Source of the DNA: Verrucomicrobiota bacterium
GTDB lineage: Bacteria; Verrucomicrobiota; Verrucomicrobiia; Verrucomicrobiales; Verrucomicrobiaceae
Direction of reading: 5' to 3'
DNA length: 37,186 nucleotides
NCBI GenBank assembly: GCA_026397715.1
Contig: JAPLUN010000641.1
Coordinates: 1 to 37,186, forward strand
The first letter of the stretch is position 1. Every line of letters starts with the position of its first letter. This document shows, one piece after another, positions 19,086 to 25,948 of the stretch. Under the pieces are notes generated by a model, which had not been told where the DNA came from, searched no databases, and was given only the letters and a program-made list of their open reading frames with translations. The position numbers and the translations under genes are program-made.

Positions 19086-19493
19086 ATGAAATCGTTCCTC
19101 GCATTTCTCGCCGTTCTATCTCTCAGCTTTGCTCTTACTGCCGCAGAAACCTCCCCGCCGAAGAAAAGTCCGGAGAAACCCTCGGCCAAGGTGGAGGCTG
19201 TGGCCAAAACGCTGGTGACCCAGCAAAGGGCCCAGCTGCTGACTCTGCTGAACCAGGGGGATCTGGCGGCGCTCATGGCGATTCCCGGCATTGGTGAAGT
19301 CCGCGCCAAGGCCATCCAAAAAGCCCGCCCTCTGGCCGATGTGACCAACGTGGTGAGCGTCGATGGCATTGGTGAGGGCATTTTTGCTCAAATGGTCGCC
19401 TATGCGAAGGCAGGCTTTCCCCAGCCGGAGAAAAAAGCTCCCGCCAAAAAGAAGTCCTCGCCGAAAAAAGCGGACACTCCGAGCTCAAAATAG
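19086..19493 (+). CDS. Secreted helix-hairpin-helix protein, ComEA-like
   Basis: A 135-residue exported protein. The signal peptide is MKSFLAFLAVLSLSFALTAA. A tandem helix-hairpin-helix unit follows: IPGIGEVRAKAI (66-77) and VDGIGEGIFAQM (92-103). The C-terminal ~25 residues are lysine-rich (PEKKAPAKKKSSPKKADT). HhH units bind DNA backbone non-specifically, and an exported HhH protein resembles ComEA, the periplasmic DNA receptor of natural transformation. The basic tail could add DNA or surface binding. It precedes nuoI, but with a 174-bp gap containing a separate promoter and operator, so it is probably not part of the nuo operon. The role in DNA uptake is inferred. Confidence 0.82.
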   Translation: MKSFLAFLAVLSLSFALTAAETSPPKKSPEKPSAKVEAVAKTLVTQQRAQLLTLLNQGDLAALMAIPGIGEVRAKAIQKARPLADVTNVVSVDGIGEGIFAQMVAYAKAGFPQPEKKAPAKKKSSPKKADTPSSK

Positions 19494-19580: not shown

Positions 19581-19598
19581 TTGTGAAATTTTTCACAA
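19581..19598. promoter_or_regulatory. Rex-type operator (NADH/NAD+-responsive) upstream of nuoI
   Basis: TTGTGAAATTTTTCACAA is a perfect 18-bp inverted repeat. It matches the published Rex consensus TTGTGAA-N4-TTCACAA at all fourteen defined positions. Rex represses respiratory and fermentation genes when NADH is low and is known to control nuo operons in actinobacteria. The site is 70 bp before the nuoI ATG and 8 bp upstream of a -35-like element. No rex gene lies in this window, so the regulator is inferred. Confidence 0.8.
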
Positions 19599-19605
19599 AT
19601 AGCGG

Positions 19606-19633
19606 TTGCCGCACTGCGGGACGTTCGGATAAT
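19606..19633 (+). promoter_or_regulatory. Probable promoter of nuoIJKLMN
   Basis: TTGCCG at 19606-19611, a 16-bp spacer and GATAAT at 19628-19633 form a plausible sigma-70 promoter, immediately downstream of the Rex-type palindrome. The transcript would start near 19640, about 28 bases before the nuoI ATG. No clear Shine-Dalgarno is seen. Confidence 0.45.
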
Positions 19634-19667
19634 CAAACCCGGTTCTCCTGCGGTTCCCTGCTCATAC

Positions 19668-20213
19668 ATGGCCACTATCATTGTACAACGTCCCAAACTT
19701 GCCTGGCATGAACGCTGGTTCATTTCCACGCTGCTGAAAGGGCTGAAAATCACGATTGGGCACGGCATCAAGACCTTCCTCCAGATTGCCGGGGGCAAGC
19801 CCAAGGTCACGATGGAATACCCGGAGCAGAAGTGGGACGAGCATCTGCCCGAACACTACCGTGGTGCCCCCGCCCTCGTCACGGACGAGCAGGATCGCGA
19901 GCGCTGCGTCAGCTGCCAGCTCTGCGAGTTCATCTGCCCGCCCAAGGCCATCAAAATCATCCCCAGCGAGATTCCCAGCGATGATCCATGGGCCAAGGTC
20001 GAGAAGAGGCCCAAGGAATTCGACATCGACATGATTCGCTGCATCTACTGCGGCATGTGCGAGGAGGTCTGCCCGGAGCAGGCCATTTTCCTGCGCAAGG
20101 ATTACGCCATCACCGGTCTCTCACGTCAGGAGATGGTGCACAACAAAAAGCGCCTTTATGAAATCGGCGGCCAGCGCGTGGGGCTGGTGAACAAGTGGAA
20201 CGAGCTCAAGTAA
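19668..20213 (+). CDS. nuoI: NADH-quinone oxidoreductase subunit I
   Basis: The 181-residue complex I subunit that carries clusters N6a and N6b and passes electrons toward the quinone site at the membrane junction. Two complete ferredoxin motifs are present: Cys80, Cys83, Cys86, Cys90 (CVSCQLCEFICPP) and Cys125, Cys128, Cys131, Cys135 (CIYCGMCEEVCPE). The N-terminal ~40 residues contain an amphipathic stretch (ISTLLKGLKITIGHGIK) typical for membrane docking. It is the first gene of the nuoI-N operon; nuoH, its usual upstream neighbour, is absent, so nuoA-H must lie elsewhere. The stop shares one base with the nuoJ start (TAATG). Confidence 0.97.
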   Translation: MATIIVQRPKLAWHERWFISTLLKGLKITIGHGIKTFLQIAGGKPKVTMEYPEQKWDEHLPEHYRGAPALVTDEQDRERCVSCQLCEFICPPKAIKIIPSEIPSDDPWAKVEKRPKEFDIDMIRCIYCGMCEEVCPEQAIFLRKDYAITGLSRQEMVHNKKRLYEIGGQRVGLVNKWNELK

Positions 20214-20791
20214 TGCCCCCTCTGCTGTTCTATCTCTTTGCACTGATCACCCTGGGCTTCGGCTTCCTGGTCGTCACCGGTCGCAATCCAGTCACCTGCG
20301 CTCTAGCTCTTGCGGCCAGCTTCGTTGGCCTCGCCGCGCTGTTCCTCAGCCTTGATGCCTACTTTATAGGAGTCATCCAGATCCTCGTCTATGCCGGCGC
20401 AGTCATGGTGCTCTTCCTGTTCATCATCATGCTGCTGGACATCAAAACGGAGGAGGGCAAGAAACTAAACGTCCCCGCCATCGTGTCCGGTGTGTTGCTG
20501 GCGGTGTTGCTGACCCTGCAAATCATCGCGGTTGTTGGCAGCACCGAACTGGCAAATAAAACCTCACAAAATACCCCCTTGGCTCTGGCCGAGGCAGCAG
20601 GAAAAATCGGCAAAGCGGCGCTGCCCACGATTACCAATGATCTCAAAGCAGGCACGCTGCCTGATGCCAAGCTGATCGGCTTCACTCTGTTTGATCAATA
20701 CGGCTTCCACCTTCAAGTCATCGGCCTGCTCCTGCTCGTCGGTACGATCGGTGTCGTCGTTCTCAGCAAACGCGAAAGGAGCGCCCCATGA
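20213..20791 (+). CDS. nuoJ: NADH-quinone oxidoreductase subunit J
   Basis: A 192-residue membrane subunit with five hydrophobic helices. The conserved third helix is seen in LDAYFIGVIQILVYAGAVMVLFLFIIMLLD, here spanning residues ~45-75; it carries the pi-bulge region linked to coupling. The start ATG at 20213 overlaps the nuoI stop by one base; a frame back to 20195 lies inside nuoI and is rejected. A polar loop (~100-155, NKTSQNTPLALAEAAGK) separates helices 4 and 5. Its stop overlaps the nuoK start in ATGA, indicating coupled translation. Confidence 0.95.
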   Translation: MPPLLFYLFALITLGFGFLVVTGRNPVTCALALAASFVGLAALFLSLDAYFIGVIQILVYAGAVMVLFLFIIMLLDIKTEEGKKLNVPAIVSGVLLAVLLTLQIIAVVGSTELANKTSQNTPLALAEAAGKIGKAALPTITNDLKAGTLPDAKLIGFTLFDQYGFHLQVIGLLLLVGTIGVVVLSKRERSAP

Positions 20792-21105
20792 TCACCCTTG
20801 GCCACTATCTCGTTGTCAGCGGCATGCTGTTCTCGCTGGGTCTCGCTGGCGTCATTGCCAGAAGAAACATCATCATCGTCTACATGTGCCTGGAGATGAT
20901 GCTCAGCGCTGCCAATCTCGCTCTCGTCGGCTTCTCCCGCTTTCATCTCGTCAACGGCCTGCCGGATTACACCGCGCAGTCGCTCGTGTTCTTCACCATC
21001 ACCGTGGCTGCTGCTGAAGTGGCCGTGGGTCTCGCCATCATCGTGGCTCTCTTCCGCTCCAAGCAGAGCGTGGATGTGGAGTCCGTCACCAAACTTCAAG
21101 GATAA
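20788..21105 (+). CDS. nuoK: NADH-quinone oxidoreductase subunit K
   Basis: A 105-residue, three-helix membrane subunit, of the same size as NuoK elsewhere. Helix 2 contains the conserved glutamate in YMCLEMMLSAANLALVGF and helix 3 the second in TVAAAEVAVGLAII; both are proton-path residues in the family. The 4-bp overlap with nuoJ and the 9-bp gap to nuoL place it firmly in the operon. Confidence 0.96.
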   Translation: MITLGHYLVVSGMLFSLGLAGVIARRNIIIVYMCLEMMLSAANLALVGFSRFHLVNGLPDYTAQSLVFFTITVAAAEVAVGLAIIVALFRSKQSVDVESVTKLQG

Positions 21106-21114
21106 CGCGCCCGC

Positions 21115-22995
21115 ATGCACGCCAGCATCATCCTACTGCTGCCATTCTTTTCGGCGCTCGTCATCCTTCTGGGGCACCGTCAGCTCAAAGGGGCTTCCGT
21201 GCTCATTTCGGTGGGTTCCTCCATCATTTCCTTCATCGCCTGCCTGTTTTTCCTGGCCGCAGAAGATGACAACAAGCTGCTCCTGCCCTTCCTCGACGTC
21301 GGCGGCCATTTCCATGCAGGCATTGAAGTCCTGATCGACAAGCAGAGCCGGGGCATGATGTTCATCGTCAGCTTCATCGGCATGCTGGTGCACATTTTCT
21401 CGCTCGGCTACATGAAGGACGACGATGCGAAGCCACGCTTCTTCGGTTCCCTCTCACTCTTCATGTTCTCCATGACCGGCATCGTGCTGGCTGGAAACCT
21501 GATCATGATGTTCATCTTCTGGGAGCTCGTCGGTCTGAGTTCCTACCTGCTCATCGGCCACTGGTACCAAAAGGCCAGCGCCGCCGAAGCCTGCAAAAAA
21601 GCCTTCCTCACCAACCGCATCGGCGACTTCGGCTTCATGATCGGCATCTTGCTGCTCTTTGGGGCCAACCACGGCAGCGTGAACCTCGATGATCTCGCCA
21701 CGGCCTTCAAATCTGGCCCGCTGGCTCCCGGGGCACCCGGTTACAGCGCAGGTTTCACCACGGCGGCTGCTTTGTGCATCTTCCTCGGCGCGGTGGGCAA
21801 ATCCGCTCAGTTCCCGCTCCATGTCTGGCTGCCGGACGCCATGGAAGGCCCCACCCCCGTCTCCGCTCTCATCCACGCCGCCACCATGGTCGCCGCAGGT
21901 GTTTACATGCTGGTGCGTGTGAGCTTCCTCATTGAGGCTTCGCCGCTTGCGGCGGAAATCATCGCTGGCATCGGCTGCTTTACCGCATTGTTGGCAGCCT
22001 TGATGGCCACGCAGCAGAACGACATCAAGCGTGTGCTGGCCTATTCGACTCTCTCCCAGCTTGGTTACATGGTCATGGCCGTCGGTGCCGTGGCGATGGC
22101 TGCCCAGCACGGCCACGAGGCGCACGGTCCGAACCCCGGCCATCCGGCCATGTTCCACCTCTACACGCATGCCTTTTTCAAGGCGATGCTCTTCCTCGGC
22201 TCAGGTGCCGTCATCTATGCCTGCCACCATGAGCAGGACATCTGGAAGATGGGCGGTCTTCGCAAGCACATGCCCGTCACCTTCTGGACCTTTCTCATTG
22301 GCACCCTCGCATTGATGGGCCTTCCATGGATCACCAGCGGATTCTACAGCAAGGAAGCCATTCTCGGCGCGGCTTATGACAGCGGCTGCAGCATCCTCTT
22401 CCACTCCGCCGCGCTCACAGCACTGCTGACTTCGTTCTACATGATGCGTTTGGTCATCATCGCCTTCTTTGGCAAGCCCCGCACCGAATCCGCGCATCAT
22501 GCCACCGAGGTTCCGGTGATCATGTGTCTGCCCTTGATTGCTCTCGCGGTCTTTTCGGTTCTGTCCGCTTGGGATGGATTTGCCACGCCGCTGCAGGCCT
22601 TGAAACCAGCTCACGAGCCACCTCATGCCACGGTGCTGTTTGCCTCCATCGCCGCATTCATCATCGGCACCGGCGGTGCGATCTACCTCTATCGTGGCAA
22701 GGACAAGGACCCGATCAGCATCAAGCTCTTCGCCAACAAGTTCTATTTCGACGAAATCTACGCCGTCATCGTTCGCATCTGCCAGGACCGCCTCGCTTGG
22801 ATCGTCACCGCCTTGGAGCGTGTGTTTGTCGATGGCCTTATCGCCCGCCTGCCCACTGCGATCGTCGCCCGTCTTGGAGCCGCCACCCGTCTGCTGCAGG
22901 GCGGCCATCTGCAAGGCTACACCTTCCTGCTGGGTGGTGGTGTCATTGCTGTGATTTATCTTGTCGTGTTTGTGCTGCCCCGCATGGGCCATTGA
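21115..22995 (+). CDS. nuoL: NADH-quinone oxidoreductase subunit L
   Basis: The 626-residue antiporter-like subunit at the distal end of the complex I membrane arm. Channel residues are in place: the helix-5 glutamate in FIFWELVGLSSYLLIGHWYQ, the helix-7 lysine in GAVGKSAQFPLHVWLPDAMEGPTPVSALIHAATMVAAG (given here as context at residues ~220-258), and a helix-8 histidine pair. The C-terminal part after ~520 forms the long lateral helix and final transmembrane segment (TFLLGGGVIAVIYLVVFVLP). The protein is full length and lies 12 bp before nuoM, preceded by a GGAG Shine-Dalgarno for that gene. Confidence 0.96.
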   Translation: MHASIILLLPFFSALVILLGHRQLKGASVLISVGSSIISFIACLFFLAAEDDNKLLLPFLDVGGHFHAGIEVLIDKQSRGMMFIVSFIGMLVHIFSLGYMKDDDAKPRFFGSLSLFMFSMTGIVLAGNLIMMFIFWELVGLSSYLLIGHWYQKASAAEACKKAFLTNRIGDFGFMIGILLLFGANHGSVNLDDLATAFKSGPLAPGAPGYSAGFTTAAALCIFLGAVGKSAQFPLHVWLPDAMEGPTPVSALIHAATMVAAGVYMLVRVSFLIEASPLAAEIIAGIGCFTALLAALMATQQNDIKRVLAYSTLSQLGYMVMAVGAVAMAAQHGHEAHGPNPGHPAMFHLYTHAFFKAMLFLGSGAVIYACHHEQDIWKMGGLRKHMPVTFWTFLIGTLALMGLPWITSGFYSKEAILGAAYDSGCSILFHSAALTALLTSFYMMRLVIIAFFGKPRTESAHHATEVPVIMCLPLIALAVFSVLSAWDGFATPLQALKPAHEPPHATVLFASIAAFIIGTGGAIYLYRGKDKDPISIKLFANKFYFDEIYAVIVRICQDRLAWIVTALERVFVDGLIARLPTAIVARLGAATRLLQGGHLQGYTFLLGGGVIAVIYLVVFVLPRMGH

Positions 22996-23007: not shown

Positions 23008-24468
23008 ATGAGCGTTCTTGAACTAATCATCGCACTCCCGCTGCTCGCCGCTCTGGCGATCTGGCTCGGTGCGCCTGCCCGCGCTGCATCCCTCGGTGCC
23101 ACGTTCATCAATCTGATCCTCGTGCTCTACACGGCGGTTCAATACTGGGGCAAAACGGGCCTCGCCTTCACCCATTCTCGGCCGATTCTAGAAAATCCAT
23201 CACTTAGCTTCGCCGTCGGTGCAGATGGGATCTCGATCATCCTCGCCCTGCTCACAGCTCTGGTGATGCTCGCTGCCATCTGGCAGATTGAGGATCGCCC
23301 CCCAATTTTCTACGTTTCCTCGCTGCTCATCGGCGGTGGTGCGCTTGGGGCCTTCCTCACCACGGATGTTTTCTTCATCTACGCCTTCCATGAGCTCGCG
23401 TTGATCCCGACCTTCCTCATGATCGCACTGCACGGGCGTGCCGAGCCTGCCCAGCGCAAGGCTGTTGCATGGAAGGCCACCATTTATCTCGGTGTCGGCA
23501 GTCTCGTGCTGCTCGCGGGTTTGGTGTGGCTGGTGCTCGAATTCAGCGGTGGTTCCAAGCTCACCTTTGATCTCGAAGCTCTCCGCAGCCAGGCCAAGCT
23601 GAATCCTCTGCCCGATGCCAAGCAGGCGCAGATCTTCTTTGTGCTCCTTCTTGGATTTGGCTCCCTCGTCAGCCTCTTCCCCTTCCATAGCTGGGCCGCA
23701 CCGGCCTACGCCACAGCACCCACACCCGTGGCCATGCTTCACTCCGGCGTGCTGAAAAAATTCGGTCTCTACGGCCTCATCCGCATCGCCCTGCCGCTGC
23801 TTCCCCAAGGTGCTCATGTGGAATGGGTGCAAAACGCGCTGCTCTTGATGCTGCTTGGCAACATCCTCGTCATGGGCCTCGTCACCATCCATGCGAGCCG
23901 CCTCGACAATACTCTGGCCAACTCCAGCGTCATGCACATGGGCTACATCTTCCTCGGCATTGCCGCAGGCACGGAGATCGCTCTCAAAGGCGCTGTGATC
24001 CTTATGTTCGCTCACGGCATCTCCATCGCGTTGCTGTTCGGCCTTTGCGGTCGCATGCGCAATCAGCTTGGCACTTTGGAGTACAACAAGCTCGGCGGTC
24101 TCGCCACTCATGCACCGGCGTTCACGGTGTTGTTCGCCTTTGGCTCCTTTGCTTCCATCGGCCTTCCCGGCCTCACCAACTTCGCCGGCGAAGTGCTGAT
24201 CTTCCTCGGCAACTTCACCGAGTTCAAAGCAGGCGTCCTGACCAATCTGCAATGGACCGTAATCCTGGCGCTTTGGGGCGTGGTGATGTCCGCAGTTTAC
24301 ATGCTGCGCGCCTACCGCAGCATCTTCCACGGCAGTCCTGCCACAGGCCTCTTCATGATCGATCCTGTGTTCTCCCAGCGCGTGCCGTTCATCATGCTCG
24401 CCACCACGCTGCTTGTCACCGGCTGCTGCCCTTGGCTGCTGCTTAACCTCATGAAATCCGCGCTGTAG
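23008..24468 (+). CDS. nuoM: NADH-quinone oxidoreductase subunit M (variant channel motif)
   Basis: A 486-residue antiporter-like subunit. The helix-5 glutamate is present (FHELALIPTFLMI), as is the helix-8 lysine (SGVLKKFGLYG). The helix-7 region differs from the classical form: it reads GSLVSLFPFHSWAAPAYATAPT, where E. coli NuoM has [24 protein letters not shown]. By this alignment the essential lysine (E. coli Lys234) is Leu220 here, and LPDAH is replaced by AAPAY. The frame is intact with no sign of decay, so this is a real variant, perhaps a lineage subfamily. It starts 12 bp after nuoL and ends 7 bp before nuoN. Confidence 0.94.
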   Translation: MSVLELIIALPLLAALAIWLGAPARAASLGATFINLILVLYTAVQYWGKTGLAFTHSRPILENPSLSFAVGADGISIILALLTALVMLAAIWQIEDRPPIFYVSSLLIGGGALGAFLTTDVFFIYAFHELALIPTFLMIALHGRAEPAQRKAVAWKATIYLGVGSLVLLAGLVWLVLEFSGGSKLTFDLEALRSQAKLNPLPDAKQAQIFFVLLLGFGSLVSLFPFHSWAAPAYATAPTPVAMLHSGVLKKFGLYGLIRIALPLLPQGAHVEWVQNALLLMLLGNILVMGLVTIHASRLDNTLANSSVMHMGYIFLGIAAGTEIALKGAVILMFAHGISIALLFGLCGRMRNQLGTLEYNKLGGLATHAPAFTVLFAFGSFASIGLPGLTNFAGEVLIFLGNFTEFKAGVLTNLQWTVILALWGVVMSAVYMLRAYRSIFHGSPATGLFMIDPVFSQRVPFIMLATTLLVTGCCPWLLLNLMKSAL

Positions 24469-24475
24469 TCCTGCC

Positions 24476-25948
24476 ATGAGCGTTTTCACCATCGAAGCTG
24501 GCCTCGCCATTCTCGGACTCGTTCTCCTCTTGCTGGAGGCCTTCAAGCCCGACATCTCCCGTCGCACTCTCGGCCTCACCGCCATCGCTGGCGCCACCCT
24601 CGCGCTCGTTTTGTTGACCATCGCGCCGCATGATTCTGCCAGCTTGCCCGGCTTCATCCAGCCTTGGCATCAACTCGACAGCCTCGCGCTCTTCTACAAG
24701 GGCTTTGCGCTCGTCATCACTATCCTCGTTCTCTGGCTCACGCTGGAATGCGCCCCCTACCTCACCCGCTTCACCGTAGATGGCAAACTGGCCGAAATGT
24801 TCAGCCTGCCCCTCATCGTCTGCGCCGGCATGATGTGGATGGCCTCCGCCCGTGACCTCGTCACCGTCTTCGTTGCGCTCGAACTCGTCACCGTCTCCTT
24901 CTATGTCCTTGTCGCCTTTGCACGCAAAAGCGCCTTCAGCCTTGAAGCCGGCGTCAAATACCTCATCCTCGGCGCTCTATCCACCGGCGTCCTCGTCTAT
25001 GGCATCGCCTGGATCTACGGTGCCACCGGCACAATGAGCTTCGACGGCATCGCCAAGGCGCTCGCCAATCCTGCTACCAGCAAAACCACCGCTCTCTTCG
25101 GTGCCGCCGTATTGCTCTGCGGTCTCGGCTTCAAAGTCGCCGCCGCTCCCTTCCACATGTGGGTTCCGGATGTCTATCAGGGCGCTCCGACTCCTGTGAC
25201 GGCCTTCCTGTCCGTCGGCTCCAAAGCCGCAGGCTTCGTCGTCCTCACTCGTGCGCTGGACGCCTTCATGGCCGAGGGCTCCATCATTGGCAGCGAAATC
25301 CAGGGCTTCCTGCTCGTCATCGGTTCGCTCACCGCCCTGCTCGGCAGTCTGCCCGCCATGTTCCAGACCAGCGTCAAGCGTCTGCTCGCCTACTCCAGCA
25401 TCTCGCATGCAGGTTATCTGCTCCTCGCACTCGCCTGCCGCGAAAGCGCCCGCTTCGATCTCTCCTCCGGTGGTGTCGTCGCCTTCTACCTCGCAACCTA
25501 CCTGCCCATGACCGTCCTCGGCTTCCTTGGTCTTGGCCTCATGCGCGCCAATGGCCTTGGCGAAGACATCAAGGACTTCGCCGGACTCGCCAAGCGCAAC
25601 CCGCTGCTCGCGTTGCTGATGACCATTTCCTTCGCCTCCCTCGCCGGTCTACCTCTCACTGCGGGCTTCCTCGGCAAGCTCTTCGTCTTCCTCGGCCTCG
25701 CCGATCACGGCTACTGGGGTGCCATGAGCTGCGCCGTCATCGCCGCCGCCGCTGGTTTCTACTACTACTTCAAGACCATCCTCGCGATGTACACCACCGA
25801 AGGCACCGACGTCCCCGCGCTGACCTTCTCAGGTCCCGCCAAAGCCGTCGCCGGCGCCCTGGCTCTCGTCATCCTGATCCTTGGTGTCTATCCCAAGCCC
25901 CTGCAAAGCGTCCTGACGTCAGATCGCCCTGCTGTCTTGGCGAAGTGA
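24476..25948 (+). CDS. nuoN: NADH-quinone oxidoreductase subunit N
   Basis: A 490-residue antiporter-like subunit, and the last gene of the operon. Diagnostic segments are FVALELVTVSFYVLVAF (helix-5 glutamate) and GFKVAAAPFHMWVPDVYQG (helix-7 lysine at the classical position), followed by FLSVGSKAAGF (helix-8 lysine). Fourteen helices fit the hydrophobicity. Codon use is like that of the preceding nuo genes. It is followed by an 86-bp gap with an inverted repeat and a promoter for the C39-like gene, so the operon seems to end here. Confidence 0.96.
   Translation: MSVFTIEAGLAILGLVLLLLEAFKPDISRRTLGLTAIAGATLALVLLTIAPHDSASLPGFIQPWHQLDSLALFYKGFALVITILVLWLTLECAPYLTRFTVDGKLAEMFSLPLIVCAGMMWMASARDLVTVFVALELVTVSFYVLVAFARKSAFSLEAGVKYLILGALSTGVLVYGIAWIYGATGTMSFDGIAKALANPATSKTTALFGAAVLLCGLGFKVAAAPFHMWVPDVYQGAPTPVTAFLSVGSKAAGFVVLTRALDAFMAEGSIIGSEIQGFLLVIGSLTALLGSLPAMFQTSVKRLLAYSSISHAGYLLLALACRESARFDLSSGGVVAFYLATYLPMTVLGFLGLGLMRANGLGEDIKDFAGLAKRNPLLALLMTISFASLAGLPLTAGFLGKLFVFLGLADHGYWGAMSCAVIAAAAGFYYYFKTILAMYTTEGTDVPALTFSGPAKAVAGALALVILILGVYPKPLQSVLTSDRPAVLAK

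Follow-up and report, generated by a model that had tools for sequence, protein, structure and literature searches.

An 18-bp inverted repeat stands in front of nuoI in the window, which is the whole 37,186-nucleotide stretch of Verrucomicrobiota DNA that we analyzed. It raises the question of which regulator reads this box, and how far the control exerted through it extends.

A Rex-type box and its copies in the source genome

The letters at the box, read directly, are TTGTGAAATTTTTCACAA, and they fit the published Rex consensus TTGTGAANNNNTTCACAA at all fixed positions, as the first-pass annotation had claimed. The same annotation described the box as a perfect palindrome of 18 bp. Its two 8-bp arms are indeed exact reverse complements of each other, yet self-complementarity fails at the TT between them, so that 16 of the 18 positions are palindromic. 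An NADH dehydrogenase operon had been placed 70 bp downstream; the operon is there, and domain and family profile matches identify its genes as the proposed nuoIJKLMN, but the gap between the box and the nuoI ATG, when counted, is 69 bp. Between the two lie a -35-like and a -10-like element (Table 1), and from these letters the transcription start of the nuoI block is predicted near 19640. The true start of nuoJ is probably the ATG at 20213. No second copy of the box was found in the window with up to 3 mismatches allowed, and shuffled sequences gave 0. Directly upstream of the box, positions 19086-19493 encode a 135-aa helix-hairpin-helix (ComEA-like) protein, a position common to several close relatives.

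Table 1. Coordinates of the box and its neighbors in the window, and of the boxed operons, nuoA and rex in the source genome (G000).
Feature	Location	Strand	Basis or remark
Predicted Rex operator (ROP), TTGTGAAATTTTTCACAA	19581..19598	.	Exact match, genome copies, distribution tracking rex
-35-like element, TTGCCG	19606..19611	+	7 bp past the box; offset common among nuo/atp boxes
-10-like element, GATAAT	19628..19633	+	Conserved fixed distance, 16-17 bp past the -35
nuoI, 4Fe-4S subunit, heads the block	19668..20213	+	TIGR01971, E 8e-32, slightly under the curated cut-off; Fer4 domains
nuoJ	20195..20791	+	PF00499
nuoK	20788..21105	+	PF00420
nuoL	21115..22995	+	NF005141, above cut-off
nuoM	23008..24468	+	TIGR01972, above cut-off
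nuoN	24476..25948	+	TIGR01770, above cut-off
Boxed operon, nuoI-N	window		
Boxed operon, nuoH	C40		
Boxed operon, nuoDE	C81		nuoE after nuoD
Boxed operon, nuoBC	C289		
Boxed operon, nuoF	C329		
Boxed operon, nuoG	C545		
Boxed operon, ATP synthase	C527		From atpB
Boxed operon, probable alternative complex III	C675		Multihaem cytochrome, large Fe-S protein, NrfD-like protein
nuoA, solitary	L157:3853-4230 (C464)		
rex	L019:6157-6786 (C445)		PF06971 (winged-helix) and PF02629 (Rossmann)

The source genome, that of a Verrucomicrobiaceae/Prosthecobacter relative, is a fragmented assembly (703 contigs totalling 6.76 Mb, 93% complete) in which boxes may be missed; even so, a whole-genome pattern search matched TTGTGAAANNTTTCACAA exactly at 8 sites, where base composition predicts about 0.0003. 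Degenerate second-class sites, sought with 1 or 2 mismatches, were not found in this genome, and a reversed control pattern gave 0 matches. All 8 boxes precede respiratory or energy operons. A chance palindrome or an unrelated inverted repeat, for which we found nothing in favor, has practically no probability left and is refuted by these genome counts.

The nuo genes of this genome are spread over 7 places, and the box stands ahead of all of them except nuoA, before which none was found. nuoA is also missing (0 cases) from 155 distinct boxed promoters with a recognized first gene that we collected across relatives. The first-pass annotation had predicted control of the proton-pumping half of complex I. 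That holds for nuoI-N but is too narrow, as all complex I pieces except nuoA are boxed, together with ATP synthase and an operon that its gene order and domains mark as a probable alternative complex III (ACIII). Further copies, which the annotation proposed to look for near nuoA-H among other genes, do stand at nuoBC, nuoDE, nuoF, nuoG and nuoH, but not at nuoA.

The box and the rex gene

A Rex operator called for a rex homologue, with a winged helix and a Rossmann fold, in the same genome, and a single one is present (Table 1). It scores above cut-off in the NCBIfam Rex models and resembles solved Rex structures. This rex gene itself has a degenerate match to the box, with 5 mismatches; rex autoregulation is common, not universal. 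Right before the rex start lies a degenerate inverted repeat, GTGAATTTTCAC (L019:6120-6157), with a spacing shorter than that of the operator.

The exact box occurred in 24 of 388 sampled genomes of the phylum, and rex was present in 24 of these 24. Within the order of the source genome, 21 of 21 rex-bearing genomes carried the box (2-11 boxes each) versus 0 of 24 rex-less genomes (Fisher p ~3e-13, without phylogenetic correction); these counts ignore kinship, and 23 of the 24 rex-less genomes belong to one genus (g5) and are hence non-independent. One genome (G216) has neither rex nor box, and two others of its genus, G244 and G255, carry the gene as well as the box. In a genome of another class (G163), the sole exact box lies immediately before rex, which is followed by nuoE- and nuoF-like genes. 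Rex-bearing genomes of other families without an exact box also exist (G296 and G323).

The box also fits exactly the pattern TGTGA-N6-TCACA, which has the half-site and the spacing of CRP, so a regulator of the CRP/FNR family might read it instead. We rejected this candidate, which we regard as very improbable. The 93%-complete genome, searched with the HTH_Crp_2 profile (PF13545), gave no match above cut-off, and the sole weak match is a GntR/UTRA protein. The presence of the box tracks rex, as counted above, and box decay at nuoG promoters correctly predicted the absence of rex (see below). Sequence comparison thus gives good support to Rex as the protein that reads the box, and the box is very probably under Rex-mediated control, with Rex predicted to bind it and to respond to NADH.

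Broken nuo operons and a fixed promoter frame

To map gene order and boxes, we sampled 80 relatives by their NuoI protein and not by the motif, and a box was scored when it lay at most 250 bp from the gene that opens a nuo block. The blocks in this NuoI-anchored set begin at nuoD, nuoG, nuoH or nuoI. A box was found at the head of 53 of the 59 blocks (13/13 nuoD-first, 23/27 nuoG-first, 7/8 nuoH-first and 10/11 nuoI-first). The palindrome is therefore conserved ahead of nuoI where nuoI comes first, as expected of a functional site in relatives; elsewhere the box is found before nuoH, nuoG or nuoD. The set contained a single box inside a nuo block, at L153, where one box precedes nuoD and a second separates nuoF from nuoG, in what looks like an intermediate stage of operon break-up. 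The most broken-up genome, G235, has separate boxes at nuoB, D, E, F, G, H and I. The nuo operon broke up stepwise, and living relatives display several of the stages. Another exact box of G235 (L243:2977-2994, C6) adjoins no recognized gene; the nuoG box follows 1.4 kb downstream of it.

The boxes of G163 and G235 come from a set of sites picked by the exact motif, so the invariance of that set is a product of selection, and the NuoI-anchored set alone is free of that. Other boxed genes in relatives encode a polyprenyl synthase, an MqnC-like radical SAM protein, NDH-2, COX1 and a cytochrome c; taken together, the boxed targets across relatives span the respiratory chain as a whole, along with parts of its quinone supply. 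In one relative (G241), the probable ACIII operon is preceded by a tandem pair of exact boxes, 25 bp apart (L232:2001-2043).

When nuo and atp promoters were aligned on the box, a TTGCCG-like -35 started 25 bp from the box start (23 bp in many nuoB and some nuoD promoters), which leaves 5-7 bp between the box end and the -35. A TTG was present at offset 22-26 in 132 of 138 nuo/atp boxes versus about 8 expected from neighboring windows. Most of these promoters have a GATAAT-like -10, 16-17 bp beyond the -35, and the box, which ends before the -35 begins, has its center near -50 relative to the predicted start. The actA promoters differ. There, in several genomes including the source genome, a TTGCAA/TATTCT-like promoter, read by eye, lies upstream of the box, which would put the box at about the predicted transcription start. 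We also considered that one promoter cassette had been copied to every nuo fragment, and rejected this: the similarity of the 16-bp spacers was 0.31 between different genes of one genome versus 0.29 between different genes of different genomes, with no sign of copying.

Six NuoI blocks had no box. Four of them are headed by nuoG promoters (L114, L118, L134 and L155) that retain the -35 and the -10 and have lost the arms of the box. Their decayed boxes predicted that rex would be absent, and no rex match was found in 4 of 4 genomes, while the boxed genomes tested alongside had rex in 11 of 11. The other two blocks (L147 and L119) are in rex-bearing genomes, and they are probably not operon heads, because a conserved promoter is absent at both.

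Ten nuoG and nuoD promoters from five rex-less genomes retained the positions of the AAA..TTTC core in 7-9 of 10 cases. The last AA survives in 9-10 of them, but the outer TTGT in only 1-3; the promoters come from few lineages, so that core retention does not amount to 10 independent events. At rex-less nuoD promoters, the downstream half of the box was retained more than the upstream half, and at the nuoD promoter of G390 almost nothing of the box is left. The pattern is suggestive of a decay of the outer arms after rex loss, while the core, the -35 and the -10 mostly persist. In a rex-bearing genome (G394), the nuoD box is lost (L310, 5 mismatches) with its -35 and -10 kept, and the nuoG box (L115) is intact.

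How Rex may act, and comparison with known systems

We propose that a single Rex regulon spans the broken complex I genes, ATP synthase and the probable ACIII. At low NADH, Rex would occupy the box and deny the polymerase access to the AT-rich core; when NADH/NAD+ is high, as it may be at low oxygen, Rex would depart. The freed AAA..TTT core could then work as an UP-like element, and all the respiratory pieces would be induced jointly. UP elements lie at about -57 to -38, just upstream of the -35, and the nuo/atp box would cover the place where the C-terminal domain of the RNA polymerase alpha subunit binds such an element. At the probable ACIII operon, where the box is at the predicted start, Rex would simply block the polymerase.

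The sign of regulation is the firmer part of this proposal, and we consider Rex at the box likely to be a repressor. If Rex were instead an activator, bound near -50 and touching RNA polymerase, its contact would explain the fixed spacing to the -35. Distance and phase to the -35 are fixed over many unrelated operons, the box is almost invariant in the NuoI-anchored set, chosen without the motif, and, given that the Streptomyces Rex sites overlap the -35 (PMC5355995), a box wholly upstream of it at constant spacing is not typical of a repressor and could also suit an activator. We nevertheless judge activation unlikely and favor repression, because the loss of rex hardly alters the core promoters (rex-less relatives retain a near-identical -35 and -10, with no evident compensation), because at actA the predicted -10 precedes the box, a placement that makes sense for repression only and would leave an activator ineffective, and because the characterized Rex regulons consulted here are repressed (PMC5355995, PMC2883068).

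Rex could also repress by plain steric hindrance with no UP role for the core, the fixed spacing being due to one copied promoter module or to a steric optimum. This account is a serious one, to which we give somewhat less than an even chance. The same module does stand ahead of every nuo fragment, and S. aureus has known Rex sites that precede promoters by a few bp (PMC2883068). It is opposed by the spacers, in which no copied cassette is visible, and by the retention of the core after rex loss. An UP-like role of the A/T core is suggested by the fixed position of the nuo/atp box together with that retention, although the box agrees with the complete UP consensus AAAWWTWTTTTNNNAAA only in part, and we hold this role as a tentative addition to repression. 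In the same tentative spirit, the box may have a double use, the outer arms serving Rex and the A/T core serving the polymerase, with Rex masking the core and the module gained anew at each nuo break.

One sensor seems to hold together the gene set of an operon that has fallen apart. Fragment by fragment, physical linkage would give way to a common operator set in a fixed promoter frame, and complex I, whose subunits have to be produced together, could thereby outlive the break-up of its operon; the regulator-less lineages are natural knock-outs for this arrangement. The rex-less genus g5 has a contiguous nuoD-N (L284-L286), whereas rex-bearing Verrucomicrobiaceae have it broken up; Rex control may conceivably permit nuo break-up.

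Our literature search, which covered mostly papers available without subscription, found no report of such a regulon for Rex in Verrucomicrobia and nothing relevant on Rex combined with an UP element. Rex control of nuo, atp and ndh2 is already known from Streptomyces, and what appears to be new is the phylum, the scattered operon and the fixed geometry. The Rex respiratory regulon appears to be extended to Verrucomicrobiota.

A close likeness is to the Rex regulon of Streptomyces avermitilis and S. coelicolor, which shares the operator consensus TTGTGAANNNNTTCACAA and the nuo, atp and ndh2 targets (PMC5355995). In that regulon, Rex represses nuoA-N, the atp operon, ndh2 and cyd, and NADH releases it (PMC5355995). 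The Streptomyces nuo genes, however, form one operon with one degenerate site on the -35 (the sites at nuoA1 and atpI overlap the -35 and contain mismatches; PMC5355995), whereas here nuo lies in 7 places, all but nuoA have a near-invariant box placed upstream of the -35, and the regulon takes in a probable ACIII. Our box fits exactly the operator of S. aureus, TTGTGAAW4TTCACAA, and some of the S. aureus sites are found within a few bp of a promoter, on one side or the other (PMC2883068); the targets there, in contrast, are fermentation and anaerobic genes with many mismatched sites, where ours are the respiratory chain. With UP elements (full consensus AAAWWTWTTTTNNNAAA; PMC2412878) the box shares an AT-rich core that precedes the -35 at the corresponding position and persists after Rex loss; it differs from them in matching the consensus only in part, and any contact with the alpha subunit is here putative.
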